Part shown: positions 127 to 19,427 of the stretch, piece after piece
Layout: each line of letters starts with the position of its first letter
Numbering within the stretch: the first letter of the stretch is position 1
Assembly (NCBI RefSeq): GCF_002995745.1
Contig: NZ_PVXQ01000015.1
Span: 1-64,000, forward strand
From: Clostridium vincentii
GTDB taxonomy: Bacteria; Bacillota; Clostridia; Clostridiales; Clostridiaceae
Length of the DNA: 64,000 nucleotides
Direction of reading: 5' to 3'
Translations under genes and position numbers: made by a program
The notes under the pieces: generated by a model
What the model saw: only the letters and a program-made list of their open reading frames with translations
What the model was told of the DNA's origin: nothing
The model's database searches: none

Positions 127-206
127 GTAATAACTAAATCCTCACTATTGTATAAGGCTACTTTCTGGCCTAGTAAATAATCCTTTATCTACATTATTAT
201 CAATTA

Positions 207-242
207 CCTTTGCGACGTGTTTTGCTAGTAGTACGACGCAAA
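207..242. repeat. Junction repeat with TTTGCGACGT / ACGACGCAAA inverted arms
   Basis: TTTGCGACGT (209-218) and ACGACGCAAA (233-242) form an imperfect 10-bp hairpin with one mismatch. The left arm is a variant copy of the junction element also found at 4989, 5145, 15658 and 17492. It lies just beyond the terminator of the DUF4830 gene. Confidence 0.55.
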
Positions 243-277
243 AAAATACCGCAAATTTATTTGAATACTACGGTATT
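241..277 (-). terminator. Terminator of the DUF4830 gene, family shared with 1949 and 5239
   Basis: AATACCG at 245-251 pairs with CGGTATT at 271-277, with an inner CAAAT/ATTTG stem, followed in minus-strand sense by a T-run. The same AATACCGC...CGGTATT design followed by TTTTTGCG recurs at 1949-1985, and in altered form at 5239-5276. Confidence 0.7.
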
Positions 278-330
278 CCAATTAATCTATTTTTTCAATA
301 ATACAACCATACATCTATTAAAAGAATAAA

Positions 331-768
331 TTACTTTTCCTCTAACGAACTAGCTAATATAGACCAAATAGGGTTTGAAGGTTCCCAATAACCAACAATC
401 TTTCCTAAATAGAAAATGCCAACAACTTGAACTTCCTTATTTTCTAATCCATATGCCTTTAATGTTACCTCTTTCCCTAAGTATGAAGAGAAGTCTAAGC
501 CTTCCACTTTAGAAAGTTCATTGGCTTCCTTCAATATTTCTCCTACATTAACATCGTCTCTAACCTCGTCAAAACCTTTAGGCAGTCTTATTGTAGCTTC
601 CGCCCCACTGTCTGACATCAATGTATATCCTTTACTCTTAAGAAAAGCTGCAAAGGAATACTTCTTGATAGTAGTTAATCCCACAGCTACAAACGCTAAA
701 ATAATAATTAATGTAATTAATAAACTTTTCACTCTAAATTTCTTGATTTTTAAAGTCATATTTCTCAT
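331..768 (-). CDS. Membrane-anchored DUF4830-like protein
   Basis: Function unknown. The 145-residue product starts with a basic segment and one hydrophobic helix (residues about 14-36), which should anchor it with the rest outside the membrane. The outer part (about 40-120) has the pattern of DUF4830, a small Firmicute domain: LKSKGY near the start, IRLP.GFDEVRDD, then LDFSSYLGKEVTLKAYGLEN. A ribosome site AGAGAGGATGAG precedes the ATG. It ends just upstream of a strong terminator and stands alone between junction repeats, so it is probably its own transcription unit. The family call is by eye. Confidence 0.55.
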   Translation of the reverse strand: MRNMTLKIKKFRVKSLLITLIIILAFVAVGLTTIKKYSFAAFLKSKGYTLMSDSGAEATIRLPKGFDEVRDDVNVGEILKEANELSKVEGLDFSSYLGKEVTLKAYGLENKEVQVVGIFYLGKIVGYWEPSNPIWSILASSLEEK

Positions 769-865
769 CCTCTCTACATTATTATAATTCTATTTTAAAC
801 TAAATTTACATATTGTTTATATATTTATCTCCTATTGAGTATCAACATAGATTTTCAAGTCTCCA

Positions 866-1288
866 CTAAATTTTTTTATTATTTTTAGACAAATAATAAA
901 AAAATGAAAAAATACGACTAATCCATAAAGCCAATATCGCAATTACAAATCCTACATTATTTAGATATATAGAATACACAGTAATACCCAATATAACAAA
1001 TGTTTCTATATCGAATGAAGATGATTTTGCATTTATAAGTATTCTATTATTTCTTTCGTCTTTAACCTCAATTTGTTCCTTATTATATTTTTTTGGATTT
1101 CTTGCAAAATCAATCACCCTTTTTAACTGAAATAACGAAAGTCCAATAGATGCTCCTGACACACCCAATAATGACAATGAATAATATTTATTTGGAATTA
1201 TAACATATCCTAATATAAAAAATGCAACAGCAATGACTATGAGCAATATAAGTTTTACTATTTCTTTAGACCATTTAATATTTTTCAT
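866..1288 (-). CDS. Small DUF2178-like membrane protein paired with XRE regulator
   Basis: 140 residues with four hydrophobic stretches (about 10-30, 34-55, 95-112, 115-132) separated by a charged loop (NPKKYNKEQIEVKDERN). Its ATG overlaps the TGA of the upstream XRE regulator by four bases (ATGA), so the two are translationally coupled. Small membrane proteins resembling DUF2178 are commonly found directly behind such 65-70 residue XRE regulators in Firmicutes. The loop motif DERN is typical of that group. The substrate or signal is unknown; a membrane partner for the regulator is an inference. Confidence 0.55.
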   Translation of the reverse strand: MKNIKWSKEIVKLILLIVIAVAFFILGYVIIPNKYYSLSLLGVSGASIGLSLFQLKRVIDFARNPKKYNKEQIEVKDERNNRILINAKSSSFDIETFVILGITVYSIYLNNVGFVIAILALWISRIFSFFYYLSKNNKKI

Positions 1289-1488
1289 TTTTCTTCCTCC
1301 TCATAAATAAAAATTTCTTCAATTGACATACGAAAATAACAAGCAATTTTAAATGCTAAAATAAGAGATGGGTTATATCGACCATTTTCAAGAGAACCAA
1401 TAGTTTGACGTGAAACCTCTAAATCATCTGCAAGTTCTTCTTGATTTATGCCACGCTCTTTTCGTAGTTCCTCTAATTTGTTTCGCAC
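1285..1488 (-). CDS. XRE-family transcriptional regulator (67 aa)
   Basis: A minimal Cro/C1-type helix-turn-helix protein: NQEELADDLEVSRQTIGSLENG (about 15-36) is the HTH, followed by NPSLILAFKIACYF and an acidic tail. Members of this YozG-like family are DNA-binding repressors with no ligand domain. It starts at a GTG behind AGGAGG. The promoter just upstream carries two palindromes of the form GGAAAGTNNNCTTTCC, suggesting autoregulation. It forms a two-gene operon with the downstream membrane protein (4-base overlap). Confidence 0.85.
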   Translation of the reverse strand: MRNKLEELRKERGINQEELADDLEVSRQTIGSLENGRYNPSLILAFKIACYFRMSIEEIFIYEEEEK

Positions 1489-1515
1489 AACAAAATATAC
1501 CTCCTATTAAATTAT

Positions 1516-1577
1516 GGAAAGCTTACTTTCCATCAACAGTATAGCATTTGCTGCTTTAAATGTAAAGTGTACTTTCC
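1516..1577 (-). promoter_or_regulatory. XRE-operon promoter with two operator palindromes
   Basis: In minus-strand sense TTTACA (1561-1566), a 17-base spacer and TATACT (1538-1543) preceded by TG make a near-ideal sigma-A promoter. GGAAAGTACACTTTAC (1562-1577) covers the -35 box and the near-perfect palindrome GGAAAGTAAGCTTTCC (1516-1531) lies just downstream of the -10. Both are plausible operators for the XRE protein they precede. Confidence 0.7.
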
Positions 1578-1720
1578 ATATATTCTTGATAGAAAGCAGA
1601 CTATTTTTCAAGTTTGCTAAGAATATAAATATGATACTTACATCGTCTTGCCTACAGATTATTCATGTAATTTCAAATCTATCCTGTTATAACAAGTTTA
1701 TTATGAGGAGTTGATACTTT

Positions 1721-1842
1721 ATGAAAGTTATTGCAAAACCTATAAAAATGATTGCATGGTTTACACAAGATGGGACACCGAAACCCGTTATGAATTGAAA
1801 TATGAGATTAATACTTGTAAATGGATGTTGTATAAAATGTAA
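1721..1842 (+). pseudogene. Internally deleted remnant of a small clostridial protein gene
   Basis: From an ATG at 1721 (GAGGAG at 1705-1710) frame 1 reads MKVIAKPIKMIAWFTQDGTP and then meets a stop. From 1780 a shifted frame reads ETRYELKYEINTCKWMLYKM and stops at 1842. I recall these as the two ends of one roughly 85-residue clostridial protein family of unknown function (start ..AKPIEMVAWF..G.P.P, end ..KYEL.TCKWML.K). About half of the gene is missing in the middle. It is the only plus-strand gene in the first 19 kb. Confidence 0.6.
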
Positions 1843-1881
1843 TAAAATACAGTATTAATCGTTTTTTATAAAGTTTAAAAG

Positions 1882-1948
1882 AAGCCTGTCCCTTAAATAG
1901 GAACTAAACTTCTCTTTCTGTCTTCCTTATCTAGTATTGTAACGCAAA
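1882..1948. repeat. AAGCCTGTCCCTTAAATAGG repeat next to a GTAACGCAAAA junction
   Basis: A 30-nt block beginning AAGCCTGTCCCTTAAATAGG (1882-1911) recurs almost identically at 13933-13962. It contains an internal hairpin (GTCCCT/AGGAAC with one G-T pair). It is followed by CTAGTATTGTAACGCAAAAA, the same ending that precedes the terminator at 5230-5240. The stretch 1489-2036 otherwise holds only the promoter, the remnant and this repeat. Confidence 0.55.
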
Positions 1949-1985
1949 AATACCGCATATTCTTTTTATTGAATAATACGGTATT
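1947..1985 (-). terminator. Terminator of the secreted-protein gene at 2037
   Basis: AATACCG (1949-1955) pairs with CGGTATT (1979-1985) and has an inner ATATTC/GAATAAT stem; a T-run follows in minus-strand sense. It is homologous to the terminator at 241-277. Confidence 0.7.
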
Positions 1986-2036
1986 AAAATCTATTTTTTA
2001 TTAAAGTTATGAATTATTATAGAAATAAAATCACTA

Positions 2037-2372
2037 TTAAGGTTCCTGCGGATAAAAATACATTTCTCCTTTACCAATTAATATAACTCTGTAAGTAGGA
2101 AGGATAGGTACTGTAATGTGTTTTTCTGACTTTGGTAGTAGTAGTATAGAATGCTGCATATTTAGATTTTCATCCATAATAATCATGTAGATTTTATCTG
2201 TTGAAGAAACGTTTGAAAATAAATAGATCTCATTTTTTGAAGGATTAAAATCAGATACGTTATAAATACCTTCCTTAAAAGTGTTACTAATTGCAAATAC
2301 AGGTTTTACTCCGATTACATTGAATATTAAACATAAAAAAATTAATGATAAAACAGTAAATCTCTTCATCAT
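2037..2372 (-). CDS. Small secreted protein of unknown function
   Basis: 111 residues with a classical signal peptide: MMKR, a hydrophobic core to about residue 23, and a probable AxA-type cleavage after PVFA (about 28). The mature part of about 83 residues has no motif I recognise and looks like an all-beta fold (alternating hydrophobics: EIYLFSNV, IYMIIMDEN, YRVILIGKG). It starts 44 bases after the stop of the PocR histidine kinase gene and precedes a terminator, so the two probably form one operon. A link to sensing is only an inference from position. Confidence 0.65.
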   Translation of the reverse strand: MMKRFTVLSLIFLCLIFNVIGVKPVFAISNTFKEGIYNVSDFNPSKNEIYLFSNVSSTDKIYMIIMDENLNMQHSILLLPKSEKHITVPILPTYRVILIGKGEMYFYPQEP

Positions 2373-2416
2373 TTACCCACCTTTCAGTTATATTATGCAC
2401 AATAAATATAATAATA

Positions 2417-3841
2417 TTAGTCAAAATATATATCAGAAAACTCAATTTCAGTATTTTCTACATTATAATTTAAATCATTAACTCTATGTTTATGTGTGTT
2501 AGCTTCACTTTCCATAAGCTTAATAGGTAACTTAATTATGAACTCACTACCAATACCTAATAGACTTCTTGCTGTAATTTCCCCTTCATGCATCTTCACA
2601 CAGGATTGTACAAGTGATAATCCAAGGCCACTACCTTCAGTGCGTCTTCTGAGTGAAGCATCTACTTTGGTAAAGGTATCAAAAATTTTTTCAAGCATAT
2701 CTTGCGGAATACCAACTCCAGTATCTTTCACAGAAATCAATATATGATCTTGTCTATCATATATTGTTACAGCTATATTTCCTCTTGGCTTAGTAAACTT
2801 AATTGAATTTGATAATAAATTCAACATAATTCTTTCAAATTTTTCTGCATCAAATGCAGTTATTTTTTCTTCTATTTCCGTATCAAAAACAACATTAATT
2901 CCCTTTAGACTTGCATATTCAACTATTGATAATGTAACATCTTCAATAATTTTAATAATATTGCCATTTTTTAAGTGCAGACTAAACAAATCTACTTCTA
3001 TTTTATTCATATCTATTACATTATTAATCAACCTAATCAATCTATGACAATTTTTTTTCATTATTTTTGAATATTTAAAAAATTCCTCAGCAGTATATAT
3101 AAATGAACTATCTTTATGAACTTTTTCTAATAACTGCAAGGCACTGTAGATAATATTAATAGGTGTCTTTAATTCATGTGATATAGTTGAAAAAAGTTGA
3201 GTCTTTAATTTATTATATTCATTAGATTCTTGTAGCAACAAATCTTTCTTTAACGCCTCAACCTCTAAGCTTTTCGAAATCCTCTTAAGCTTTAGTTCTT
3301 CGTAGCCTATTTTTGAAAGCGCATTTGCAACTATAAACAACACTTCTGCGGCAGCAATTACATTTTTTTCTGTAATAATTTTAATTTCCCTTATAGCCTC
3401 AATAAATTTAGCCTCATCGCCACCTATTTCTTTTGCTGTTTGTATATACCTTGATTTTTCAGGTTTCTTTGTTAAAACTTGTCCACCTAAGATAGTTCCA
3501 ATTTGTTTGCCCTCTACTAAAATAGGAGCTGCAAAATCAATTAGTCCAGCATGGCAGGTATAAATATAAGGCCTACTTGTTCGTGCTGCTTCCGCTCCAG
3601 CTTTTCTATGAGACTCTGCACATCTATTATCACCTATAGTGGTAGTATGTATAAGATCAGTACAAAAGCTTGTATAGGAGCTTGGGTTAGTCACTGGATT
3701 TCCACTTTTATCTACAGTTACACTTGCAATATCCATACTTTCAGCAAAGTTATCCTGGAATGTTTGTAGTATGTTAATATCTATAACATCTTTTATTTCA
3801 AGTGAATCTATATCAATATCGCAATTAGTGTTTCCAATCAT
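2417..3841 (-). CDS. Soluble PocR-domain sensor histidine kinase
   Basis: Autophosphorylating sensor kinase. Residues about 18-175 form a PocR-type sensory domain (C60, C74 and C96 in the family's cysteine pattern; YTCHAGLIDFAAPI), followed by a linker helix and HisKA (SHELKTP, phospho-acceptor H222). The catalytic domain has an N box (NLLSNSIKF), G1 (DTGVGIP, 373-379) and G2 (GSGLGLS). No transmembrane segment is visible, so it should be cytosolic. PocR domains are known or predicted to bind small hydrocarbon derivatives. No response regulator gene is adjacent. A secreted-protein gene follows 44 bases downstream. The start has GGAGG nearby. Confidence 0.85.
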   Translation of the reverse strand: MIGNTNCDIDIDSLEIKDVIDINILQTFQDNFAESMDIASVTVDKSGNPVTNPSSYTSFCTDLIHTTTIGDNRCAESHRKAGAEAARTSRPYIYTCHAGLIDFAAPILVEGKQIGTILGGQVLTKKPEKSRYIQTAKEIGGDEAKFIEAIREIKIITEKNVIAAAEVLFIVANALSKIGYEELKLKRISKSLEVEALKKDLLLQESNEYNKLKTQLFSTISHELKTPINIIYSALQLLEKVHKDSSFIYTAEEFFKYSKIMKKNCHRLIRLINNVIDMNKIEVDLFSLHLKNGNIIKIIEDVTLSIVEYASLKGINVVFDTEIEEKITAFDAEKFERIMLNLLSNSIKFTKPRGNIAVTIYDRQDHILISVKDTGVGIPQDMLEKIFDTFTKVDASLRRRTEGSGLGLSLVQSCVKMHEGEITARSLLGIGSEFIIKLPIKLMESEANTHKHRVNDLNYNVENTEIEFSDIYFD

Positions 3842-3910
3842 AGTTTAGATTTCCTCCAATGTTTTTAATTTAATTTTTATTTATTATAAGTTACCATTTC
3901 AGCTTAATTC

Positions 3911-3965
3911 AAACAATTATATTCATATTATAACATATTATGTAAATTCCTACTATTCTCTCAAA
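3911..3965 (-). repeat. 55-nt promoter-like repeat, copy 1
   Basis: 51 of 55 bases match 19341-19395. In minus-strand sense both copies lie 50-80 bases before a gene start and contain TTGAGA, 18 bases and TAATAT, and here also TATAAT, so they are candidate promoters. A 62-codon frame across this copy (3909-4097) lacks a ribosome site and I do not call it. Confidence 0.55.
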
Positions 3966-4162
3966 TAGCAGAGTTTTGATTTTTCTATTTAATCTATTCT
4001 TCTTAATATTGCGATTATTCATCCTCAAAGTACACTTATTACTTTGCTTATAAATTACCCCTACTCCCTCTTGATATGATCCCTCTAAAGTAGACAACGT
4101 AAATATAAAAACGTTACTACATTGGAGGATTTATTTTATAAGACTTCTTTCTAACCGAATAG

Positions 4163-4855
4163 TTAATATATATTTAGAACATCATAAAAGTAAGCATTAC
4201 TTCTAGATGCGCTAATAACAATCTTGAATGGATGATTTTGGTATCCATATATTATAATATTTCCAAAGTTATCTTTATATTTTTCTTTTATATCTTTAAA
4301 ATTAAAAATATAATATCCAATTATTATTCCATTTTTAAAGCTACCTGTTGCTCTATTTAAAATCTCATTACCATACATTACGTTGTGCTCTTTAATTTCA
4401 AATATTTCTACTCCATTACTAAAATATGGTCGTATAATTATTCCTGATATATTTGATGAAAAAGCAAACATTACAAGTACTATTAAACTAATAACCAAAA
4501 GTGTTTTATAAAAAATATCTATATCCACTTCTCTCAGATGTTGAAATATACTCACAACTCCAAAATAATCTAAAAATAAAGATAAGTATGTTCCAAAAAG
4601 CATTACTCCCGCAATTAATATTACAGTAATATCTTTATATTTAGGAAAATCAAGTTTTTCTAGTTTTTTTATTCTATTTAAAATAGAATAAGAATCTTTA
4701 ATTCTTACCAAGATAATAAAATTTATACTAGACATCAAAAAAAACTTAACTAAAAATATATAAGTAAAATTATCATTTTTCAAAAAAATAAATATGATAA
4801 GAAACATCATATTTATAGCAATTGGAACTCTTAGATTTTTAAATATTTTTTTCAT
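4163..4855 (-). CDS. Membrane protein of unknown function
   Basis: 230 residues. I do not recognise the family. Hydrophobic segments at about 10-26, 32-52, 77-97 and 117-145 suggest four membrane helices. The C-terminal third (about 150-230) is soluble with alternating beta-like segments (GIIIGYYIFNFKDI, GNIIIYGYQNHPFKIVIS), reminiscent of small regulatory or PH-like domains. It begins with a strong GGAGGAG site and stands alone, flanked on the upstream side by a junction repeat. Nothing in the neighbourhood fixes a role. Confidence 0.6.
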   Translation of the reverse strand: MKKIFKNLRVPIAINMMFLIIFIFLKNDNFTYIFLVKFFLMSSINFIILVRIKDSYSILNRIKKLEKLDFPKYKDITVILIAGVMLFGTYLSLFLDYFGVVSIFQHLREVDIDIFYKTLLVISLIVLVMFAFSSNISGIIIRPYFSNGVEIFEIKEHNVMYGNEILNRATGSFKNGIIIGYYIFNFKDIKEKYKDNFGNIIIYGYQNHPFKIVISASRSNAYFYDVLNIY

Positions 4856-4959
4856 TTCTCCTCCTCAACTAATATAGATAATCTTTACTTCTCTATGGTC
4901 TGCTATGCTAATAAATCCTGTTGTCTTTGCTGTTACATATATATAGTTATAAATTTTAA

Positions 4960-5100
4960 TCAAATCCCTTCTAATATGAATTTATATACCTTTGCAGCGT
5001 AGTTTGTGAAGATTATGAATTTATATATCACTACCAAAACTGCAACTAATAGTACAAGGTTAATAACTGACATAATAATTGTAGAATAGTCAATTCCCAT
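4960..5100 (-). CDS. 46-aa single-helix membrane protein
   Basis: Small gene with AAAGGA eight bases before the ATG at 5100 (an ATG at 5109 lies inside the ribosome site). The product is MGIDYSTIIMSV followed by a hydrophobic helix to about residue 30, then a short polar tail. The last 20 codons run through the TTTGCAGCGTAGTTTGTG junction repeat and its flanking ATGAATTTATATA direct repeats, so the natural C-terminus was probably different. Function unknown. The rest of the 4856-5364 interval holds only repeats and a terminator. Confidence 0.45.
   Translation of the reverse strand: MGIDYSTIIMSVINLVLLVAVLVVIYKFIIFTNYAAKVYKFILEGI
4976..5027. repeat. Junction repeat flanked by 13-bp direct repeats
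   Basis: CCTTTGCAGCGTAGTTTGTG (4989-5008, continuing to 5010) is a two-mismatch copy of the junction element. It is bracketed by perfect direct repeats ATGAATTTATATA at 4976-4988 and 5015-5027, which look like a duplication made on insertion of about 26 bases. Confidence 0.6.
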
Positions 5101-5144
5101 AAAAATCATCCTTTCTTATTTATAATTTTGTTATATTAAAAATG

Positions 5145-5276
5145 CCTTTGCGACGTAGTTTCTCTAACAATAGGAAAGCAACTTCAATTAAGCAAAACAT
5201 ACCCCATTAAATGTCGTCCTATCTTAGTATTGCGACAAAAATATACCTCATATTCATTTTTGAATATGGCATATTT
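5145..5276 (-). repeat. Junction element and terminator behind the GyrI-like gene
   Basis: CCTTTGCGACGTAGTTT (5145-5161) is followed by TCTCTAACAATAGGA, an imperfectly complementary TCCTATCTTAG (5216-5226), TTGCGAC (5230-5236) and a hairpin CATATTC/GAATATG (about 5249-5267) with a T-run in minus-strand sense. It appears to be the full-length form of the junction structure, of which 207-277 looks like a shortened version. The hairpin would terminate the gene at 5365. Confidence 0.55.
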
Positions 5277-5364
5277 TAGTTTTGTTATAAATCTTTAAGT
5301 ATTAATGTGACTTAGTTAAATTCTTATATCTAGCTGATAAATTGGAATTTGTTTTAATATTTTT

Positions 5365-5820
5365 TTATAATATTGGTACACAAATTTCACAATAATGCTT
5401 ATTTATCATCTGCATTGCATAGCGTTCAAGAATAGGTCTTCTATCATCAAATTCATAATTTCTTTTTGACAACTCCGAAAATATCTCCATCCATGCTTTT
5501 TGCATAGCATCTACTGTATGACTTATTTCAAATACGCAATATTTTCCACCGATAGTTTTTCCAAAATTAATATACTTATTATCAACCTTAAATTCATCCG
5601 AAACAACTAAACATGTATCATAACGACAATTTTTAGGTTCTGTAATTTGAGGGTTATCTTGAGCTATTCCTAATATGATTGAACTTTCATTAAATAAGTC
5701 TTTTTCTCTAGCCCAACTTTTTAATTGTTCCATTATTTGCACATTCTCAGAACCATAAGTACCTGTTTTTCGTATATAAGCAATTTTATATGATGATATC
5801 ATTTCAATATTAATATCCAT
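5365..5820 (-). CDS. GyrI-like small-molecule-binding protein
   Basis: 151 residues matching the GyrI-like (AraC effector-binding) fold throughout, without a DNA-binding domain. Visible hallmarks are VEMISSYKIAYIRKTGTYG-like opening (IAYIRKTGTYGS), a central LGIAQDNPQITEPKNCRYDTCL segment and FGKTIGGKYCVFEISHTVDAMQKAW. This family includes gyrase inhibitor SbmC and stand-alone multidrug-binding proteins. The sequence cannot show which ligand is bound. It is a single-gene unit with its own terminator in the array of unrelated genes. Confidence 0.8.
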   Translation of the reverse strand: MDINIEMISSYKIAYIRKTGTYGSENVQIMEQLKSWAREKDLFNESSIILGIAQDNPQITEPKNCRYDTCLVVSDEFKVDNKYINFGKTIGGKYCVFEISHTVDAMQKAWMEIFSELSKRNYEFDDRRPILERYAMQMINKHYCEICVPIL

Positions 5821-5910
5821 AACTTACCTTCTTTTTTAATAGAGTACATCGATGCCTGAAATCATCATATAATGCTTTAAAATGTATTTCAACTTGTTTT
5901 TTAAATTACT

Positions 5911-5956
5911 AAATTACTATTTTTATTACTCAGCCTTAAATTGAAATTTAGCTATT
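5911..5956 (-). repeat. 46-nt stop-codon-abutting repeat, copy 1
   Basis: AAATTACTATTTTTATTACT begins this copy; in minus-strand sense it starts at the stop of the VOC gene (AGCTAAATTTCAATTTAAGG, with TAA the stop). Copies at 6978-7023 and 7523-7568 have the same layout relative to their upstream genes. Confidence 0.65.
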
Positions 5957-6412
5957 CAAAAGTTTTTCTAAATCTTCAACAGAAGCGCTCATTTTTATTG
6001 AAATTTCGTCTATAGTTAAACCAATAGCAAAGAAACGGTTTATTACCATTTTCATATACTCTCCTACTTCAATTAGATGCCCATCCAAATCATAAAATCT
6101 AACAACACGCTGTCCCCAACTATGTTCTATAACATCACCTAAATATTTAATATTGGGATATTCTTTTAATTTTTCAATAAAATTATCAAAGTTTTCTTCT
6201 TCAAAACAAAGTTCAATATTGTTACTCTTTTCAAGAATTTCTTCTTTTGGAAGATTTATAAGCCAGTCAAATTCTTGTTGCAATGATAATCCACAAGTAA
6301 ATGATATGTTAATACCATAGTTCTGATATAATTCCACCTCAAACAAATCCTCATAGAATTTTCTTGATAAATTAATGTCTGCTACTGATATGACCGTACA
6401 AGTATATTTCAT
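5948..6412 (-). CDS. VOC (glyoxalase/bleomycin-resistance) family protein
   Basis: 154 residues. The first 120 form a VOC domain: TVISVADINLSRKFYEDLF at the start, a middle strand LSLQQEFDW, and the closing VVRFYDLDGHLIEVGEYM that supplies a metal-ligand Glu in this superfamily. After it comes a small helical tail (IGLTIDEISIKMSASVEDLEKLL) resembling a short HTH-like extension seen in some clostridial members. VOC proteins include lyases, dioxygenases and antibiotic-binding proteins; the substrate is not deducible. Its stop codon lies inside the 46-nt repeat. Confidence 0.8.
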   Translation of the reverse strand: MKYTCTVISVADINLSRKFYEDLFEVELYQNYGINISFTCGLSLQQEFDWLINLPKEEILEKSNNIELCFEEENFDNFIEKLKEYPNIKYLGDVIEHSWGQRVVRFYDLDGHLIEVGEYMKMVINRFFAIGLTIDEISIKMSASVEDLEKLLNS

Positions 6413-6502
6413 TCAAATTCTCCTTTCAAATTTCATAATATTACACTTCTAACTCAAGTACTATTCATAAAATAAGAAAATTGACTTTTGATTTCTATAA
6501 TT

Positions 6503-6910
6503 CTATTTTTCAGGCTGGAATGAAAAATGAGCATGAATAATTTCCCATCTATTATCCATACATTCCAAATATAATGTACTTCTTACTGCTGGAACAGGAA
6601 AACTTTTATATTTTGAAATAAAACATAAGCATGCAGCCTCTCCTTTATGAAAAATATTTATATTCTCTATAATAAGTGGCTCAACCTCTCCTGATTCAGT
6701 CGATTTTCCTTTTTTGAAAAAATCAGAAATTAATTCCAGATGTTCTTCTAAACTATATGTATCATTATTCTTATGATTATCAAAATATATTAAAACATTA
6801 CCTTTTGAGTCATAAAATTCTTTTAAACCTATTAAGTCTTTATTGTAAAAACACTCATTGTAAGCATTTAAGAAATCAATAAAAATATCATCAGTATTCC
6901 TACTTTCCAT
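6503..6910 (-). CDS. SnoaL/NTF2-like protein
   Basis: 135 residues with the cone-shaped NTF2-like pattern: helical FIDFLNAYNECFYNKDLIGLKEFY, a strand GNVLIYFDNH, LEEHLELISDFF, then beta strands and a closing W.I.HAHFSF. Such DUF4440/SnoaL-like proteins bind small ligands and only some are enzymes. The usual terminal HxS motif is present (IIHAHFS), but catalytic residues cannot be assigned. It begins behind AGGGAGGAATTAGG. Single-gene unit; 80 bases separate it from the VOC gene. Confidence 0.7.
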   Translation of the reverse strand: MESRNTDDIFIDFLNAYNECFYNKDLIGLKEFYDSKGNVLIYFDNHKNNDTYSLEEHLELISDFFKKGKSTESGEVEPLIIENINIFHKGEAACLCFISKYKSFPVPAVRSTLYLECMDNRWEIIHAHFSFQPEK

Positions 6911-6977
6911 CCTAATTCCTCCCTATCTATTTCTTTTGAATTATTAGTATGTGAATAATTTAAATAATCTCCTCTAC

Positions 6978-7023
6978 AAATTACTATTTATAATACTCAA
7001 CTTTAAATTAGAATTTGTATTTT
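6978..7023 (-). repeat. 46-nt stop-codon-abutting repeat, copy 2
   Basis: A diverged copy of 5911-5956. It begins 7 bases after the stop of the cysteine hydrolase gene in minus-strand sense and contains GTTGAGT. Confidence 0.55.
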
Positions 7024-7029
7024 TACAAC

Positions 7030-7506
7030 TCAAAAGGTGAAGATTACCGCACCCATTTTCTCTAATTTATCTTTCATCTTTTTGAACTTGCCATAATTTC
7101 CAATACCAATAAGCGATTCATTAAATAAAATCTTATATTGCTTCGTTATTCCATCAAGAGCTGAAGCACCTACACAGTAATTACCATCTACACCAACTAA
7201 CTCAAGTTCGCTTGCATTTATCTTTTGTAAATACTCCATTAACTGTTTATTAGAAAAACAACTTGCCTTTCTTTTTTCAAACACGTTATTAGATATGACC
7301 GAAAGTCCATCAACTAACCTTTTTGGCTTTCTTCCAAATTCCCAAAAGAATCTATTTACAATATAAATCACTGATTCATTAGGATATTCTAAAAATTTTT
7401 CATTGATAGACTCTATCAGTTCCTTAGTCTTATAAGGATATATTTTTACATTCCTAGAATCCCCTACATAGTCTTCCTGCATATCTATAACTAATAAACA
7501 TTTCAT
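7030..7506 (-). CDS. Isochorismatase-like cysteine hydrolase
   Basis: 158 residues of the isochorismatase-like (CSHase) superfamily. The catalytic triad is visible: Asp in LLVIDMQEDY (D8), a Lys in KRKASCF, and the nucleophilic Cys in GVDGNYCVGAS. Members hydrolyse small amides or esters such as nicotinamide, N-carbamoyl compounds or isochorismate; the substrate here is unknown. A broken paralogue sits at 12379-12911. The ATG follows GAGGTG, seven bases away. The 3' side carries copy 2 of the 46-nt repeat. Confidence 0.75.
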   Translation of the reverse strand: MKCLLVIDMQEDYVGDSRNVKIYPYKTKELIESINEKFLEYPNESVIYIVNRFFWEFGRKPKRLVDGLSVISNNVFEKRKASCFSNKQLMEYLQKINASELELVGVDGNYCVGASALDGITKQYKILFNESLIGIGNYGKFKKMKDKLEKMGAVIFTF

Positions 7507-7522
7507 TAAATCACCTCGTTAA

Positions 7523-7568
7523 AAATTACTATTTTTATTACTCAACCTTAAATTGGAATTTAGCTTTT
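7523..7568 (-). repeat. 46-nt stop-codon-abutting repeat, copy 3
   Basis: Nearly identical to 5911-5956. The upstream gene's stop codon (TAA at 7560-7562) lies in AGCTAAATTCCAATTTAAGG, exactly as at the VOC gene, although the coding sequences before it are unrelated. Confidence 0.65.
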
Positions 7569-7760
7569 ACTATTCTTTAATATTTTTACAGAACTATATA
7601 CAAGTACAGGAAGAGCAACAATCGTTATAACACCCACTACCCTTACTAATATATCTGGTAATTCAATCCCAAGAAGTGAAGAAAAAGCATTTATAATAGT
7701 TGCAATTCCAATAATGAATAAACTGATTCCCCACATTGTTCTATTTCTCTTATTATTCAT
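7560..7760 (-). CDS. 66-aa two-helix membrane protein
   Basis: A tiny membrane protein: MNNKRNRTMWG, a first helix (about 12-28), a short loop LLGIELPDILVR, and a second helix (about 37-58), then a basic tail ILKNSKS. No family is recognised. It has a GGAGGTAGG ribosome site. The 360 bases upstream of it (7761-8120) contain a 24-bp hairpin at 7977-8031 and no gene I can support. Confidence 0.55.
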   Translation of the reverse strand: MNNKRNRTMWGISLFIIGIATIINAFSSLLGIELPDILVRVVGVITIVALPVLVYSSVKILKNSKS

Positions 7761-7976
7761 TTAAACCTACCTCCAAATTACTATGTATCTTTTGGTTAAT
7801 TATAGCATATTTTGCAAATACCGTATCGTTCAATTTCCGAAGAACATTGTCGTCCTTTACACATATTCCATATTAATAATATACTTGTTGTACAAGCCTG
7901 CATTATTACAACGGGTTCACTTTAGAGGTGCAAAGTAAATAGCATAAGTATTGTCAACTAAATTAAAACCAAAATT

Positions 7977-8031
7977 TAAGTATAAAAACATCTCACATCA
8001 ATTCCTATGATGTGAGATGTTTTTATACTTA
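7977..8031. terminator. Perfect 24-bp stem-loop
   Basis: The arm TAAGTATAAAAACATCTCAC starting at 7977 and running to 8000 is exactly complementary to 8008-8031, with a 7-base loop. It can terminate transcription of the GNAT-YoaP gene, but lacks a simple T-run and is longer than most terminators here. It may belong to the junction structures. Confidence 0.5.
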
Positions 8032-10897: not shown

Positions 10898-10949
10898 AAA
10901 CCTCATTTACTTGTGATATGGTTCTCCGTATCGGTTGCAAATGAGGTTT
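10898..10949. repeat. 52-nt nested stem-loop (repeat C, full copy)
   Basis: AAACCTCATTT (10898-10908) pairs with AAATGAGGTTT (10939-10949) and an inner GATATGG pairs with CCGTATC. The left 27 bases recur exactly at 12274-12300. It lies about 70 bases after the DUF3021 gene in minus-strand sense. It could be a terminator, but the T-run is poor on that strand. Confidence 0.6.
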
Positions 10950-12378: not shown

Positions 12379-12911
12379 TTAATTTATTAATCTTTCTATT
12401 GTATTATCTATTCCTTCTACAACACCAAATCTACCGTTAAATATCTTAAAGTTATAATACTCATATAAATCCTTTGCTAATATATTTCCATTATTAAATG
12501 TTGTATTTGTTTTCTCTGGAATAATTACCTTATACCCATACTCAAAAGCAATTTTACAAGTAGTATCAAAACAATATTCTGTTTGCATACCTGTGATTAT
12601 TAACTGATTTATACCTTTATTATCTAGATACTCTCTTAAACTTGTCTCCTTAAAAGCAGAATTATAATTTTTACATATTATCTTTTCAGTTGCGGTTGGA
12701 CTTATTTCTTCATAAATATTCCATCCATATGAATTTAGTTCTAATTCGCCACCGATTTTATCAGTATGTTGAATATAAATTATCTCTACATTTTTTCTCT
12801 ACATTTTTCAATTAATCTTTTTATATTACTTATAACTTCTTCTATTGCGAAAGGTTTTGCTAATACTAATGCATTTTGAACATCTACAACTAAAAGTGCT
12901 ATATTTCCCAT
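12379..12911 (-). pseudogene. Frameshifted isochorismatase-like cysteine hydrolase
   Basis: The gene starts with ATG at 12911 behind AAAGGAG and reads GNIALLVVDVQNALV (catalytic Asp in VVDVQ). It runs to REKM and stops near 12787 just after a six-A run at 12791-12796. One base more would restore REKNVEIIYIQHTDKIGGE and continue in frame to the catalytic Cys in GMQTEYCFDTT and to the stop at 12379. So a single-base deletion in a homopolymer has split a roughly 178-codon gene. It may be a true inactivation or a sequencing error. Only the 3' 69 codons survive as a clean frame. Confidence 0.75.
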
Positions 12912-12965
12912 CTCTCTGTCTCCTTTATATAAATTTATCTTAGTTTAAATATAAAATATCTAATT

Positions 12966-13097: not shown

Positions 13098-13098
13098 T

Positions 13099-13875: not shown

Positions 13876-13932
13876 GTCTATCTCCTTTATTATAAAATGT
13901 TTATTTTGATTGTTTCCTATTAACCCTATGAT

Positions 13933-13962
13933 AAGCCTGTCCCTTAAATAGGAATTAAACTT
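13933..13962. repeat. Second copy of the AAGCCTGTCCC repeat
   Basis: AAGCCTGTCCCTTAAATAGG begins a 30-nt block that differs by one base from 1882-1911, with similarity extending into TTTCTTTATGTCC. It lies in the leader between the CPBP start and the ATC-hydrolase gene. Confidence 0.6.
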
Positions 13963-14040
13963 TTCTTTATGTCCTAATTTACGAATAAAGTGAATCAAAT
14001 AGTTAACTTCAGATTGTATCACAAGCCCTATTCAAACATA

Positions 14041-14646
14041 TTAATTGTTTTTAAAATGAAAATCACAAAATCTCTTTCCTTCAGCAATTGTACCACTTCG
14101 TTCAAACTTAACCTTGGGCAAATAACCGCTAAATGTTGTTGTATCATTAGCACAAAAAACTGTACATAGTTCAGGGTGCCCGTACTGACTTGTAACTTCA
14201 AAATAAACACATCTTTTAATATTTAAATGAACCTCTTTATTATCATATCTGATCCATTCTGTTTCCCAACCTTCATTAGGATAATTTTTGTTCATAACCT
14301 TTTTACATCCTATCTTAAATAGATAATAAAAAAACGGTATTTTTCCCAGTATCTGATTTTTCTTTTTCATAATCATAGCGTACTTTTGTGTTTCTTCAAG
14401 TATATTTTTATAAGCATTTTCAGTTGAAAAACCATACTCAAGTAAAGACATATAATATGCAAGGGCAGGAAAAATATACTTAGTCATATGCCATTTTATC
14501 ACGTCACTGTTTCTATAATCTGCTTCAATTTTCATTTTCCGAAAATTTTCTTCTGCTTTATTGTATATACATAGACCTTTTTCATTTCCGTACTTTTGAG
14601 TACATATAGATTTCAAATCTTTGAAATTAGTATCGCTGTAATTCAT
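14041..14646 (-). CDS. ATC hydrolase family protein
   Basis: 201 residues resembling clostridial members of the L-2-amino-thiazoline-4-carboxylate hydrolase family: ADYRNSDVIKWHMTK near residue 43, a middle GWETEWIRYDN, the Cys-rich CVYFEVTSQYGHPELCTVFC with ND following, and the closing GTIAEGKRFCDFHF. The founding enzyme opens a thiazoline ring on the way to cysteine, but most members are untested and the real substrate is unknown. It starts behind AGAGGGATATTAAAT with a moderate ribosome site. Single-gene unit. Confidence 0.75.
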   Translation of the reverse strand: MNYSDTNFKDLKSICTQKYGNEKGLCIYNKAEENFRKMKIEADYRNSDVIKWHMTKYIFPALAYYMSLLEYGFSTENAYKNILEETQKYAMIMKKKNQILGKIPFFYYLFKIGCKKVMNKNYPNEGWETEWIRYDNKEVHLNIKRCVYFEVTSQYGHPELCTVFCANDTTTFSGYLPKVKFERSGTIAEGKRFCDFHFKNN

Positions 14647-14746
14647 TATTTAATATCCCTCTCTTAAAAAGTATTTTTAGACTAAAATATAATTTATAAA
14701 CATATTATTCTTAAATTGTGTCGCAATAATCTACGATTGTTCATTA

Positions 14747-14778
14747 ATTTACTAAATATTTTTCAATACTCTCAGCTT
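14747..14778. repeat. ATTTACTAAATATTTTTCAA repeat (copy 1)
   Basis: This block after the stop of the 14779 gene matches 19096-19128 (ATTTACTAGATATTCTTCAA...) at most positions. TTGTGTCGCAATAATC follows at about 14717-14732 and has a weaker partner near 19150. The two loci share the same two short motifs in the opposite order. Confidence 0.45.
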
Positions 14779-15570: not shown

Positions 15571-15657
15571 TTATACCCCTCTCTTTATACTAACGCATCG
15601 TTTCCTATACATATCCCTAACACGCACCACCTATAAACTCACAAAGTTATTATTTCA

Positions 15658-15679
15658 CCTTTGCGACGTAGTTTGTGAA
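15658..15679. repeat. Best copy of the TTTGCGACGTAGTTTGTG junction element
   Basis: This copy is the closest to the consensus. TCACAAA (about 15639) and TTTGTGA (15672-15678) form inverted arms around it, and TCCCTAACAC lies at 15614-15623. It separates the small membrane-protein gene at 15696 from the 14779 gene. Confidence 0.6.
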
Positions 15680-15695
15680 TATTTTGTATTAAATG

Positions 15696-15920
15696 TTATG
15701 CTATCATTTTAATAATAACAAGAATAATAATGACTATACCTACAATGACTGAAAATATTCCAACTATTTTATTGCCCTTAGTAATTCCTTTTGAATCTCT
15801 CTGCTGTGCCATATTAATTTGACTTAATCCACCCCAAAATGTAGTAAGTCCTAAAAATATCATCATAATATCAATATTGCCATTAAAATAATTGAAAAAG
15901 TGTAAGATTCCTAAACAAAT
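15696..15920 (-). CDS. Small membrane protein, start uncertain
   Basis: A minus-strand frame reads ILHFFNYFNGNIDIMMIFLG, LTTFWGGLSQINMAQQRDSK and GITKGNKIVGIF then a hydrophobic helix to the stop at 15696. It has two membrane segments around a conserved-looking GGLSQINMAQQ loop. An in-frame ATG at 15866 would give 56 residues but cuts into the coding-like part and has no ribosome site. The nearest upstream AAGGA precedes an ATT codon at 15920. The 5' end may therefore be lost or use a rare start. Function unknown. Confidence 0.45.
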   Translation of the reverse strand: MCLGILHFFNYFNGNIDIMMIFLGLTTFWGGLSQINMAQQRDSKGITKGNKIVGIFSVIVGIVIIILVIIKMIA

Positions 15921-15991
15921 AGTGTCCTTTTATATTTGATTCTATTCTTTCCATAATTCAAATTTCTCCATATCTAATAGAATGCAATTAA

Positions 15992-16402
15992 CTATACCTG
16001 CATATTATGCTTATTTAAAAATATAAAACTTTTGTATTTTATTAAAATATAAATAGCAAAAAATCTAATTAGCAAACTTCCTATCGCCAATATATCTCCA
16101 AGTAAAATTGCAACAATACAACCCAAGGCATTAATAGAAAGTGTTATTATCGCAAACTTTATACCTATTCCTTTTTTAGTCAATAATAATACAGATGATA
16201 TTATTTCAAGCACAGCCATGAAAATTCCATATGCAACAGCGTAGGTAGGAATAACATCACTTTTAAACGTGCCACCCACTCTTAATAAATGACGAAAACT
16301 GAACCATGTCATATTTGGTATTAAACCTTTTACTATGCCCATAATTCCGCCAATGAGCATGGTGAATATTAGAACATATAATAAAATCTTGTTTCTCTTC
16401 AC
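15992..16402 (-). CDS. Four-helix membrane protein of unknown function
   Basis: 136 residues with hydrophobic segments at about 6-26, 52-73, 79-100 and 103-126 and a basic C-terminus. It resembles small DoxX- or DUF-like four-helix proteins only in general shape; no motif allows assignment. The ribosome site GAGGAG lies nine bases before the ATG. About 70 bases separate it from the epimerase gene, from which it could be co-transcribed. Confidence 0.5.
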   Translation of the reverse strand: MKRNKILLYVLIFTMLIGGIMGIVKGLIPNMTWFSFRHLLRVGGTFKSDVIPTYAVAYGIFMAVLEIISSVLLLTKKGIGIKFAIITLSINALGCIVAILLGDILAIGSLLIRFFAIYILIKYKSFIFLNKHNMQV

Positions 16403-16473
16403 TACTTAATCTCCTCACTATTTCTCCAAATAATATAGAAATAAACAAAGTTGCTTTTTAAGAATAATCTGTA

Positions 16474-17442
16474 TTACAAATAATTTAGTTCTCCTAATAT
16501 GTTTTGTTCATTCTGTGTTACATTCTCTTTGAAAAATATACTATCTACATTATTACAATACCATTCAAACGCGTTTTTTAAACCTATTGAAAAATCAGTT
16601 TCAATATTATAAAGTTTACTAATTTTCGATATATCAAGTACATTATTATAATTAAAAAATGGGAAGAAGTCTCGTTCTTTTCTGTTGTAATTATTATAAT
16701 CATACTCAATTACTTTTGCTTTCTTACCAACTACCTTCGCACAACATTCAATCCACTCTTTTATTGTAATAGCTTTCTTATTACCTACATTAAAAATGGA
16801 AATTCTATCAAGATTAGTATTTAGCAAATTTAAAATAATATTTGCTAAATCAGTTGTATAAATAAACTGTAAGCTTGTACTTCCGTTATAGGGTATAATA
16901 ATAGGCTTGTCGTTACAAATATGTTCAAATATAAGACTTTCTCTTTGAGCATAGTTATTTTCTCCATAAACATAAGGAGGTCTTAGAATTATCAAGTCTC
17001 TTTGTGTGTTTTGGAACTTTTCTATCAAAAAATATTCTGCTTCTATTTTGTTTGTTCCGTAGGATGTCCAATATTTATTTTCTTTCAACGGAGTTTCTTC
17101 ACTATATGGAATACTAAAATTTTCGACATCATAAACAGCGCTTGAACTGATAAATACAAACTGTTTTAGGTTTTCTTTATTCAAAGAATTATATAAAATT
17201 TCAACTTGTGATTCATTTAAGGCAGACACGTCTATAACAATATCAAATGAGTATTTGCTTAAAATAGTATTTATTTGCTCCGTGTCATTTCTATCACATT
17301 TTAAGTTGATTACTCTTTTATCATTATTTTCTCTTGTACCTCGATTAAGGGTGTATACTGAATAGTTATTATCCAACAAAGCATCAACTATTTTCTTACC
17401 AATAAAATAGCTTCCACCCATTACTAACACCTGCTTTATCAT
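16474..17442 (-). CDS. NAD-dependent epimerase/dehydratase (SDR)
   Basis: 322 residues from the ATG at 17442 behind GAGAGGAG; the ATG at 17460 lies in that ribosome site's leader. An extended SDR: the nucleotide-binding loop is VMGGSYFIGKK (a variant of GxxGxxG), with the acidic/CDRND strand end, the catalytic SS..Y...K set (FVFISSSAVYD, SYGTNK) and ILRPPYVYGENN. Members act on nucleotide sugars, reducing or epimerising them, but some are mere redox sensors. No glycan gene is nearby, so no pathway can be named. Confidence 0.75.
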   Translation of the reverse strand: MIKQVLVMGGSYFIGKKIVDALLDNNYSVYTLNRGTRENNDKRVINLKCDRNDTEQINTILSKYSFDIVIDVSALNESQVEILYNSLNKENLKQFVFISSSAVYDVENFSIPYSEETPLKENKYWTSYGTNKIEAEYFLIEKFQNTQRDLIILRPPYVYGENNYAQRESLIFEHICNDKPIIIPYNGSTSLQFIYTTDLANIILNLLNTNLDRISIFNVGNKKAITIKEWIECCAKVVGKKAKVIEYDYNNYNRKERDFFPFFNYNNVLDISKISKLYNIETDFSIGLKNAFEWYCNNVDSIFFKENVTQNEQNILGELNYL

Positions 17443-17491
17443 TTTATATTCTCCTCTCATTAATCAATAATTTTTATTTCGTTTAATTCTA

Positions 17492-17513
17492 CATTTGCAA
17501 CGTAGTTTACGAA
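17492..17513. repeat. Diverged copy of the junction element
   Basis: CATTTGCAACGTAGTTTACG starts this copy, at the same relative place (between one gene's stop and the next gene's ribosome site) as at 15658 and 4989. Confidence 0.5.
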
Positions 17514-17550
17514 GATCACGTCACATTATAAGAATATACTATAGATAAAT

Positions 17551-17924
17551 TCATATAATTTCCTTAAATTTTTCCAATCTAAAACAACCTTCATCATCTA
17601 CCTTTATTAGTCCATCTTTATAATCATATCCCATCTTTTTATAAAATTCACATGCAGTAATTGATGCTGGAATTTCGATTCTTTTTGCTCTTATAAAGTA
17701 TTCATCTTTCTCAAGTGTTTTAATTATTTCTTGTCCTATCCCTTTACCATGTAATTCTGGCAGAACAAATATTGTTAAAAGTATACTTTCATCTTCTTTT
17801 CCCCAAAAACTTGAAATTGCTCCGCACCCTACAATTCTCTCATTTATATATGCAACATACATATGTGCATAACTACTAATTTATATTACCTTATCTGAAT
17901 TATAAACCTCTGCTAATTTGTAAA
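17551..17924 (-). pseudogene. 5'-damaged GNAT acetyltransferase
   Basis: The clean frame (17551-17862, 103 codons) holds the acetyl-CoA-binding core LPELHGKGIGQEIIKTL and the typical end FYKKMGYDYKDG, but lacks the first 40-50 residues of a GNAT. Upstream, in the same frame, the sequence reads YKLAEVYNSDKVI, a TAA, then ISSYAHMYVAYINERIVG, which fits the missing part. So a nonsense codon and probable 5' loss have broken the gene. The internal ATG at 17862 has no ribosome site. Nonsense read-through is possible but unsupported. Confidence 0.6.
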
Positions 17925-17973
17925 CTTTCCATATTAAACCTCCAATTTAAAAATATGTTTATGTTTTTAAATT

Positions 17974-18819
17974 TCATTTTCTCTCCAATAGCCTATTTTC
18001 ATGTCTATTTGTGAGTTCGCCCTTATTAAGTAATATAATTAAAAAGATAAGAATCAGTCCCAAAAAAATAATTGACGAAGTATTATACCCGATTTTTCCT
18101 AACTCACCATTGTAAGAAGAATTAATTGCAGAATTAATTGCTGCATGCGATAATATTGCCATTAATATATTTCCATTAGTGTTGCTATATATCCATGAAA
18201 TATAAATTGAAAAAAGAACTACAGTCAGCATGAATATTGTTATTGATTTTAAGTCCTTTGTTCCTTCTGCTATTAGTTTAGGCAAATGCCACATTCCCCA
18301 TATAACTCCAAGTATCACAGAAGATGCTATTTGGCTATATGATTTCTCAAGTTTGGGTAATGCATAACCTCTCCACCCTACCTCTTCCATAGTTGCAAAT
18401 ATAATAAAGATAGGAAACGATTTAATATAGTTTTCAAACGAAAACACCTCTATTATAGAAAAATGTCTACCCTCTACCGTAAATGAAATCATAACCGATA
18501 ATATACTTATTATCATTATTGAAAAAATTGATAGTACGTACCACTTCTTATTTAAACCCTTTGGATTGAATCTTTTTAGTAATCCTTTTAATTCTCCTTT
18601 TCCACCTAACAATATTGTTAGGACTAAAGCCACTAATATTGGAAAAACCACGCCATATCCATATATGTATTTAATAAAATAAAGTGATTTGAAAATCTTA
18701 GTTGACCAACATATCCATGATAAAAGAAATGTTATTAAAAAATATAAAACTAATGATGATTTTTTAACATTTTTTACATATCTCCTTAAAAAAAGTCCCT
18801 GTATTAAGTCACAATTCAC
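17974..18819 (-). CDS. CPBP family intramembrane metalloprotease (second copy)
   Basis: 281 residues if the GTG at 18819 is used. Motifs EEVGWRGYALP, VIWGMWHLP and ILSHAAINS mark a CPBP (Abi) membrane protease with about eight helices. A strong AAGGAG lies inside the frame (near 18785), but the ATG behind it is out of frame; with one base changed it would start KNVKKSSLVLYF. So either the GTG start is right or the 5' end has mutated. It shares the family with 13099-13875 but is not closely similar. Confidence 0.75.
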   Translation of the reverse strand: MNCDLIQGLFLRRYVKNVKKSSLVLYFLITFLLSWICWSTKIFKSLYFIKYIYGYGVVFPILVALVLTILLGGKGELKGLLKRFNPKGLNKKWYVLSIFSIMIISILSVMISFTVEGRHFSIIEVFSFENYIKSFPIFIIFATMEEVGWRGYALPKLEKSYSQIASSVILGVIWGMWHLPKLIAEGTKDLKSITIFMLTVVLFSIYISWIYSNTNGNILMAILSHAAINSAINSSYNGELGKIGYNTSSIIFLGLILIFLIILLNKGELTNRHENRLLERK

Positions 18820-18841
18820 TACTATCTTGTTTTGAAAACCA

Positions 18842-19069
18842 CTATTTCGATCTACTGAAAAACATAACTACCATATCTACTATCCTGTAAATCCACTTCC
18901 ACAGTTTAGGTGTAAAACAAATCCCAACGGTGAGTAAACCTACACCTACTACAAATGTTAAAGCACCTTGGTCTCCTTCAAAATTGTTCAAGAATCCTAG
19001 AATCAGGGATATTATGATAAACAGTAACCCGCAAGTTGTCATTAGTATATTTCCTTTAATTTTTTTCAA
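18842..19069 (-). CDS. 75-aa membrane protein
   Basis: Starts at a TTG behind a perfect GGAGGTGA; an in-frame ATG at 19093 has no ribosome site. The product begins LKKIKGNILMTTCG, with a helix at about 10-28, a loop NNFEGDQGA, a helix at about 35-52, then KLWKWIYRIVDMVVMFF. The family is unknown. It is only 22 bases upstream of the CPBP gene in minus-strand sense and may be its operon partner. Confidence 0.5.
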   Translation of the reverse strand: MKKIKGNILMTTCGLLFIIISLILGFLNNFEGDQGALTFVVGVGLLTVGICFTPKLWKWIYRIVDMVVMFFSRSK

Positions 19070-19170
19070 AATTTTCACCTCCGATAAACACACTCATTTA
19101 CTAGATATTCTTCAATACTATCCGCTTCCTTTTTTTATTCTTGCTTAAAACTATTGCAATAATCCAAATC

Positions 19171-19323
19171 CTATTTGTTGTTATTTATAATATTCTGTAA
19201 TACATCTACATTTGATAACAAGTAATTATCTTGAATTACTTGATTAAAATTTCCTATGTCTTTTATCTCAATTAAATTTTTAACCATGGATCCAATTGAA
19301 TTTAAAATTGTATCATTGTTCAC
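19171..19323 (-). CDS. 50-aa protein, GTG start
   Basis: Frame with GGAGGAG nine bases before a GTG at 19323. The product reads MNNDTILNSIGSMVKNLIEI then KDIGNFNQVIQDNYLLSNVD and VLQNIINNNK; it is helical and soluble with no recognised family. The 55-nt promoter-like repeat lies directly upstream at 19341-19395. A real gene is likely because of the ribosome site and promoter. Confidence 0.5.
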   Translation of the reverse strand: MNNDTILNSIGSMVKNLIEIKDIGNFNQVIQDNYLLSNVDVLQNIINNNK

Positions 19324-19340
19324 CTTTATCTCCTCCATTT

Positions 19341-19395
19341 AAACAAGTATATTCATATTGTAGCATATTATGTAAATTCTTACTATTCTCTCAAA
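19341..19395 (-). repeat. 55-nt promoter-like repeat, copy 2
   Basis: Matches 3911-3965 at 51 of 55 positions and lies immediately after the licT terminator. It is probably the promoter of the 50-aa gene. Confidence 0.55.
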
Positions 19396-19427
19396 AAAAG
19401 CACTTAGCATTACTGCCAAGTGCTAAA
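19393..19427 (-). terminator. Terminator of the beta-glucoside operon
   Basis: AGCACTT (19399-19405) pairs with AAGTGCT (19418-19424) and a run of seven T follows in minus-strand sense, directly after the licT-type gene. Confidence 0.8.

Follow-up and report, generated by a model that had tools for sequence, protein, structure and literature searches.

Integrons are defined by IntI, attI and attC, and the attC sites carry R boxes of the form RYYYAAC and GTTRRRY. Arrays without a linked integrase are known as integrase-less attC clusters (CALINs). In the dif modules of Acinetobacter plasmids, small gene modules are bounded by short pdif sites, and the host recombinases XerC/XerD act in trans. 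The pdif sites are 28 bp long and lie inversely oriented around the module. In Firmicutes integrons are very rare: the IntegronFinder 2.0 survey records one complete integron and a few CALINs (PMC9024848). A preliminary description of the DNA studied here called integrons rare in this phylum. The Natural History of Integrons counts Firmicutes among the integron-bearing phyla (PMC8618304). Here we analysed a 64-kb stretch of Clostridium vincentii DNA (the window, G000:C15:1-64000), which is part of a 3.5-Mb genome in 99 contigs. Sequence comparison indicates that positions 5236-7855 are a mini-array composed of a leader, five genes, three copies of a 40-bp site and a terminator-like hairpin. 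We think it probable, with some reserve, that it belongs to a gene-cassette system of one bacterial family, that of Clostridium to judge by named relatives, in which a trans-acting recombinase would work on the site at its 3' arm. The system appears integron-like in its layout and its cassette-wise differences, which falls short of showing that it is an integron. We found no account of the 40-bp site or of such a system in the literature covered, which left out most subscription papers and all preprints.

The mini-array reads on the minus strand from the leader (7855-7774) to the hairpin (5279-5236). Sites were detected with the degenerate pattern AATTCYAATTTAARGTTGAGTANTATAAAT at up to 3 mismatches, with the reversed pattern as a control, and were scored with a position matrix (PWM) built from 27 of the 36 pattern matches in the genus. 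The features are as follows.

7774-7855, minus strand: leader, with promoter-like TATGCTATAAT (extended -10 shape) and then, immediately ahead of the first gene, the half-site CATAGTAATTTG; an attI/Pc-like position
7560-7760, minus strand: cassette 1, 66-amino-acid (aa) membrane protein; the unit 7550-7765 occurs in another species at 89% (L051:4860-5075) with unlike neighbours
7522-7561, minus strand: 40-bp site 1; PWM score 54.0, pattern match with 1 mismatch
7030-7506, minus strand: cassette 2, isochorismatase-like hydrolase (PF00857)
6977-7016, minus strand: 40-bp site 2; PWM score 54.1, pattern match with 0 mismatches
6503-6910, minus strand: SnoaL-like gene (PF13474, barely over the cut-off)
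5948-6412, minus strand: VOC/glyoxalase cassette (PF12681)
5910-5949, minus strand: 40-bp site 3; PWM score 48.0, pattern match with 3 mismatches
5337-5932, minus strand: mobile GyrI unit; gene 5365-5820 (PF06445 and PF14526 'Cass2'), with a 3' tail ending in AAATTCCAATTT
5236-5279, minus strand: terminator-like hairpin closing the mini-array, from sequence and fold; a related repeated hairpin element occurs in the array of genome G011

The site, AAATTCCAATTTAAGGTTGAGTATTATAAATAGTAATTTG at 5910, 6977 and 7522, consists of dyad-related arms AAATTCCAATTTA and TAAATAGTAATTTG around an asymmetric centre AGGTTGAGTATTA. Its outer arms are AAATT and AATTT, and its 3' end is ATAGTAATTTG. The consensus of 27 aligned copies is AAATTCCAATTTAAGGTTGAGTATTATAAATAGTAATTT, the last base being most often G among 112 sites. 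The pattern matched four times in the genome of the window (reversed control 0), three times in the window and once in an array piece on contig C52. Thus, all four copies fall in array pieces, and the repeat is not equally common elsewhere in the genome; the rest of the 64-kb window holds no further copy at 10 bits or more. Counting one genome per species, 15 of the 67 genus genomes contain 36 matches in all (reversed pattern 0), and the family has at least 159 matches in 61 of 206 genomes and 22 of 46 genera, with a reversed control of 0 in every genome. In a sample of the phylum, the pattern was present in one of 398 genomes, that of the window itself, and in none of the 396 outside the family. 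The position matrix gave 46-49 matches over 413 kb and 1-2 in the reversed sequence; its site counts in the fetched loci arise partly by construction, because it was built from pattern matches and the loci were chosen for holding them. As an exact match, the 12-mer AATAGTAATTTG of the 3' arm is found 59 times in 756 kb of fetched loci, mostly in sites and leaders and at a few lone places, and twice in the reversed control.

Placement was counted for 112 sites scoring at least 16 bits in the fetched array loci. At 92 sites both flanking genes lie on the strand of the site, 7 sites fall within an open reading frame (ORF), and one has no pair of neighbours. Stop codon and site are a median 14 bp apart (101 sites with a same-strand upstream gene; 30 bp or less in 67), and site and next ORF start a median 30 bp (n = 95). 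All sites were on one strand, in direct orientation, in each of the 27 multi-site loci; the most per fetched piece was seven (G007 L130, G093 L166, G096 L169). As in integrons, co-oriented arrays thus carry one gene with one 3' site. Some array genes have no recognisable site, and inspection of the sequence and of the PWM scores revealed none at the junction between the SnoaL-like and VOC genes (6413-6502). It could be supposed that such repeats, being dispersed and short and having dyad symmetry, are footprints of a non-autonomous element resembling a miniature inverted-repeat transposable element (MITE) that inserts between genes. The mostly close position behind a same-strand stop codon, in gene orientation, speaks against this. 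Among gaps of at least 150 bp, a threshold that would miss a 40-bp insertion, no pair of genomes differed by a site alone. We regard this explanation as very improbable. The site also contains a -10-like TATAAA stretch (by eye). A promoter role fits poorly with the orientation of neighbours, because at 9 of the 112 sites the upstream gene is on the same strand and the downstream gene on the opposite one, and the reverse arrangement is found at only 3. The sites in L134 and L135 have neighbouring genes of phage-like appearance by eye (of tail type in L135), and genes of the PD-(D/E)XK nuclease family transposase type lie near sites in L132 and L168. The L168 copy matches PF12784, and the L132 copies were assigned by sequence likeness.

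A leader of the family TATGYTATAATT...ATAAATAGTAATTTG often stands ahead of the first cassettes. Its pattern was present in 24 of 200 genomes and 7 of 46 genera of the family, with at least 52 matches and none in the control; its single match in the genome of the window is G000:C15:7774-7809. Similarity of the leader region to other loci reaches position 7855. The promoter role of the leaders is predicted, and the GyrI gene has a promoter-like TTGAAA-N17-TATGAT of its own (by eye). Just upstream of the leader, at 7977-8031, we noted a perfect 24-bp inverted repeat with a 7-bp loop. In the G011 array mentioned above (L053/L062, G011:C40), small genes in one orientation alternate with a repeat of about 90-190 bp, which comprises a terminator hairpin, a second repeat and a promoter-like part (7 aligned copies, one partial). 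RNAalifold supported the terminator stem, and its second stem differs from the one drawn by hand, which has broken pairs. The G011 array is probably a related but different arrangement.

G031 and G049 are sister genomes with 93-96% identity at the array locus. G031 carries 2715 bp absent from G049, with four ORFs (isochorismatase, 108 aa, 285 aa and 255 aa) and AATAGTAATTTG at both ends of the block. The G049 flanks join at ...AAATAGTAATTTG|AAAGG..., so that the junction lies at ATAGTAATTTG. The difference may be either a gain in G031 or a loss in G049. We then scanned the fetched loci for empty and filled pairs with gaps of at least 150 bp and assigned breakpoint classes by reading the junctions. 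Among 25 pairs, 11 break at the core (A)TAGTAATTT, at a close variant or in a stretch containing the core; these are G031/G049 and 10 further pairs, which are non-independent. Thus, cassette-wise gain or loss at sites, as in integrons, was seen, and related genomes do not simply share one gene order but differ by blocks at the site.

The same genes were also found elsewhere with other neighbours. Nine loci fetched from other species carry the GyrI unit (5337-5932), with 85-95% identity to the copy in the window, and its flanks are non-colinear save in one sister pair and in some short or partial matches. Ten aligned copies share a sharp left end, and their right ends vary. The unit was also present in named Clostridium, Sedimentibacter and Tissierella records, the last two of which we take to fall outside the Clostridium family. 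In the 18 of 20 named loci inspected, one copy has no left end and about half have no AAATTCCAATTT right tail. The isochorismatase gene was found in five genomes of the fetched set, with a site upstream in four of the five copies and downstream in two. This gene and those for GNAT, HD-domain and metallo-beta-lactamase-fold proteins recur in an order that differs by genus. Between array loci of different genomes we found 126 homologous blocks (at least 250 bp and 75% identity), with identity up to 97% within a genus and 95% between genera. Of the 496 ends of these non-independent blocks, 141 fall no more than 40 bp from a site, when 13.2 are expected at random positions, which is about a tenfold enrichment. 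Taken together, the comparisons show a site with a defined orientation and spacing, cassettes reordered between genera, presence/absence breakpoints in the half-site, and a recurrent leader.

These observations suggest the following scheme. A cassette would be one gene with its ribosome-binding site, usually followed by the 40-bp directional site. Strand exchange by a trans-acting recombinase would take place in the 3' arm AATAGTAATTTG, and the cassette, presumably as a circular intermediate handled by a dedicated enzyme, would enter immediately downstream of either another site or a leader ending in the same half-site. The array would be read from the leader, with expression driven from it, and closed by the terminator. 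The preliminary description had proposed that the junctions of the whole small-gene stretch (about 19 kb) are recombination sites of a cassette system. For 5236-7855 the proposal is supported by the single-gene units and directional site, by gain or loss of such units at the site between related genomes, and by the same genes at other loci of other species with non-colinear flanks; no support was found for junctions all of one kind, for the 19 kb as a single array, or for attC-like folded sites.

The resemblance to integrons goes further than single genes with a 3' site in one orientation: the arrays are shuffled, the first site is promoter-like, the functions are accessory, and the cassette-type genes include the Cass2 match. 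The consensus of the 27 aligned sites contains GTTGAGT, which fits GTTRRRY. A true integron or a CALIN with diverged attC sites could therefore be proposed, and we rate this as the least probable of the explanations. GTTGAGT has no RYYYAAC partner, so the paired R boxes of attC are not present, and the breakpoints lie at AATAGTAATTTG and not at GTTGAGT. The clostridial site is 40 bp long and AT-rich and has other arms, and its consensus fold is weak (-1.3 kcal/mol). The symmetry of the arms is real (0.85 paired against 0.39-0.54 in slid controls), and pairing is no better than in shuffled alignments. An attC-like folded site was rejected on the weak fold and the lack of covariation, so for the most part the junction does fail to fold. 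With the IntI model TIGR02249, we obtained 7 matches in the genome of the window, none over the cut-off of 265 bits (best 59.3). In the loci inspected, no integrase gene lies beside the leaders, and some species have several leaders per genome. Because no IntI over the cut-off, no attC box pair, no covariation and only a weak fold were found, we do not file the system as an integron or a CALIN; CALINs share with it the absence of a linked integrase but are defined by attC, and the clostridial sites fail the box and fold tests. The dif modules are alike in having small modules and short bounding sites and, under the scheme above, would be alike in recombinases acting in trans. In contrast to pdif sites, the clostridial sites are 40 bp long, directly oriented, about one per gene, and located on chromosomal or unplaced contigs.

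The enzyme that may act at the site was sought by homology. The IntI-model matches include three tyrosine recombinases and a fragment, all outside the 19-kb stretch; the preliminary description was right that no integrase is visible within it. Used as seeds, the three recombinases matched only themselves and the fragment beside one of them. Two further recombinases noticed by eye, one a serine recombinase of IS607 type and the other a tyrosine recombinase of a genus labelled g9, were then included among the seeds, which gave one extra weak match, to the serine seed. The g9 candidate has a PF00589 tyrosine recombinase domain and a C-terminal HTH_17/MerR-like domain (L168:500-1456 in G096:C25, also L186-L191). 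It was present in 6 of 200 family genomes at E 1e-30, all of genus g9. Of the seven g9 genomes in the site survey, G098 has no site and is not among the enzyme matches listed. The candidate is only a lead, because the other site-bearing genera gave no match at E 1e-30.

Several results weigh against a dedicated cassette system. The candidate recombinase is confined to g9 at this threshold, and sites span 22 genera. Homology searches revealed no recombinase accompanying the arrays in the window's own genus; this absence is weakly shown, since the three tyrosine seeds missed the g9 enzyme and the search is therefore insensitive. No plasmid, phage or viral-contig record carried the site at the sensitivity used (one distant GyrI relative lies on a Brevibacillus plasmid). 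Arm covariation is lacking, with a paired fraction of 0.850 against a shuffle mean of 0.856. Ten of the 11 core-breaking pairs compare G093, G094 and G096 of genus g9, so the 11 are not independent. The other 14 of the 25 pairs break off the core. Terminator-type repeats account for 7 of these, a leader repeat and the ribosome-binding-site repeat AAGGAGTT for 1 each, and 5 lie elsewhere. The break at AAGGAGTT is a second, 1.48-kb difference between G031 and G049. Free-standing GyrI copies have no whole site, many having no more than arm-like stretches at their two sides; the left arm is absent or poor in L048, L060, L080, L085, L088 and L089, and the right arm is missing in L042, L060, L080, L082, L084, L085, L087, L088 and L090.

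It is possible, though rather unlikely in our view, that no dedicated enzyme exists. The site and leader would then be conserved regulatory or terminator/promoter sequences, and homologous or short-repeat recombination would swap or lose the genes. This is the main rival explanation. The breakpoints in terminator-type, leader and AAGGAGTT repeats agree with it, as do the TATAAA stretch, the lack of a linked recombinase in the window's genus and the variable right ends of the free-standing GyrI copies. However, repeat-mediated loss would not easily produce free-standing single-gene units with a common left end and unlike flanks, and the stretch shared at the G031/G049 junction is 12 bp. We continue to favour a cassette system with a recombinase in trans. 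The broader proposal is a cassette system independent of integrons across the Clostridium family, with a new class of 40-bp site, half-site promoter leaders as platforms, and a putative trans-acting recombinase moving single genes within and between genera; for this we judge the chances evenly balanced. If it is true, modular single-gene capture has evolved separately in Firmicutes with other parts, and the site and leader are a searchable mark for mobile accessory genes in clostridia. It could then be tested directly whether an enzyme acts at AATAGTAATTTG and, if so, which one.

The mini-array is embedded in a stretch of about 27 small genes between about 330 and 19,338, nearly all on the minus strand, after which a beta-glucoside-type operon starts at 19,446. 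Inspection of ORFs and Pfam matches bore out the earlier impression of short, unrelated genes. The families are GyrI-like, VOC, SnoaL, isochorismatase, GNAT, histidine phosphatase, alpha/beta hydrolase, CPBP, ATC hydrolase, epimerase, LytTR and histidine kinase; the genes are mutually unrelated wherever there are Pfam matches, and several have none. A search of the window against Rfam gave no match at the gathering score.

Shared sequences do occur near the 12 junctions named in the preliminary description. It turned out that they form not one family but at least four unrelated ones, and a single common site for all 12 was rejected, the conserved 40-bp site being at only three (5911, 6978 and 7523). 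A second family, TTTGCGACGTAGTTT, is found at 207, 4989, 5145, 15658 and 17492, and by eye its copy at 4989 lies inside a small ORF. Its pattern CTTTGCRRCGTAGTTT at up to 2 mismatches matched 11 times in the genome of the window, five of them in the 19 kb, and the reversed pattern 3 times. At up to 1 mismatch, TTTGCGACG did not exceed chance in relatives: among the 67 other genus genomes 8 had one match each, and the reversed control gave 10 matches over the 68 genus genomes. At the same limit it has two matches outside the window in the window's own genome, one coding by eye and the other in an array piece on contig C21. The third family is a 27-bp identity at 10898 and 12274, for the latter of which the preliminary description had given 12180. 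The fourth (14747/19096) is possibly coding sequence, with, by eye, a common C-terminus EA-E/D-SIE-K/E-YLVN.

The 19 kb outside the mini-array consists of blocks divided by TTTGCGACG repeats, terminator-like hairpins and a 59-bp promoter-like element (3907-3965 and 19337-19395, 92% identity). Contigs C21 and C72 of the same genome carry this element too, as does C52, at least in part. That the other approximately 20 genes are cassettes of the 40-bp-site system was not supported. Features with copies elsewhere are given below.

5146-5161, plus strand: second junction family, CTTTGCGACGTAGTTT, with other copies at 208, 4990, 15659 and 17493; from repeat comparison and the pattern search of the genome
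14745-15690, minus strand: g263 unit; a second array piece of this genome carries a duplicate of the block at 93% (L036:3192-4137), next to a different neighbour
4168-4892, minus strand: g230 unit; duplicate on contig C52 at 97%
14020-14692, minus strand: ATC-hydrolase unit; 81% identical to a unit in the G011 array

Part of an 83-aa membrane gene is likewise duplicated, at 98%, in another array piece of the genome. Positions 1-126 of the window are the end of an element, which we take to be IS66-like, repeated at or near many contig ends of the same genome. It probably breaks the assembly, and because of this recurrence the array may run on past position 1. A cysteine-hydrolase-type gene at 12379-12920 appears disrupted by eye, and a stretch related at 82% is found in G011 (L061). 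Positions 1640-1817 hold the truncated remnant of a small gene, a longer version of which lies on contig C72 (L035:2693-2941).

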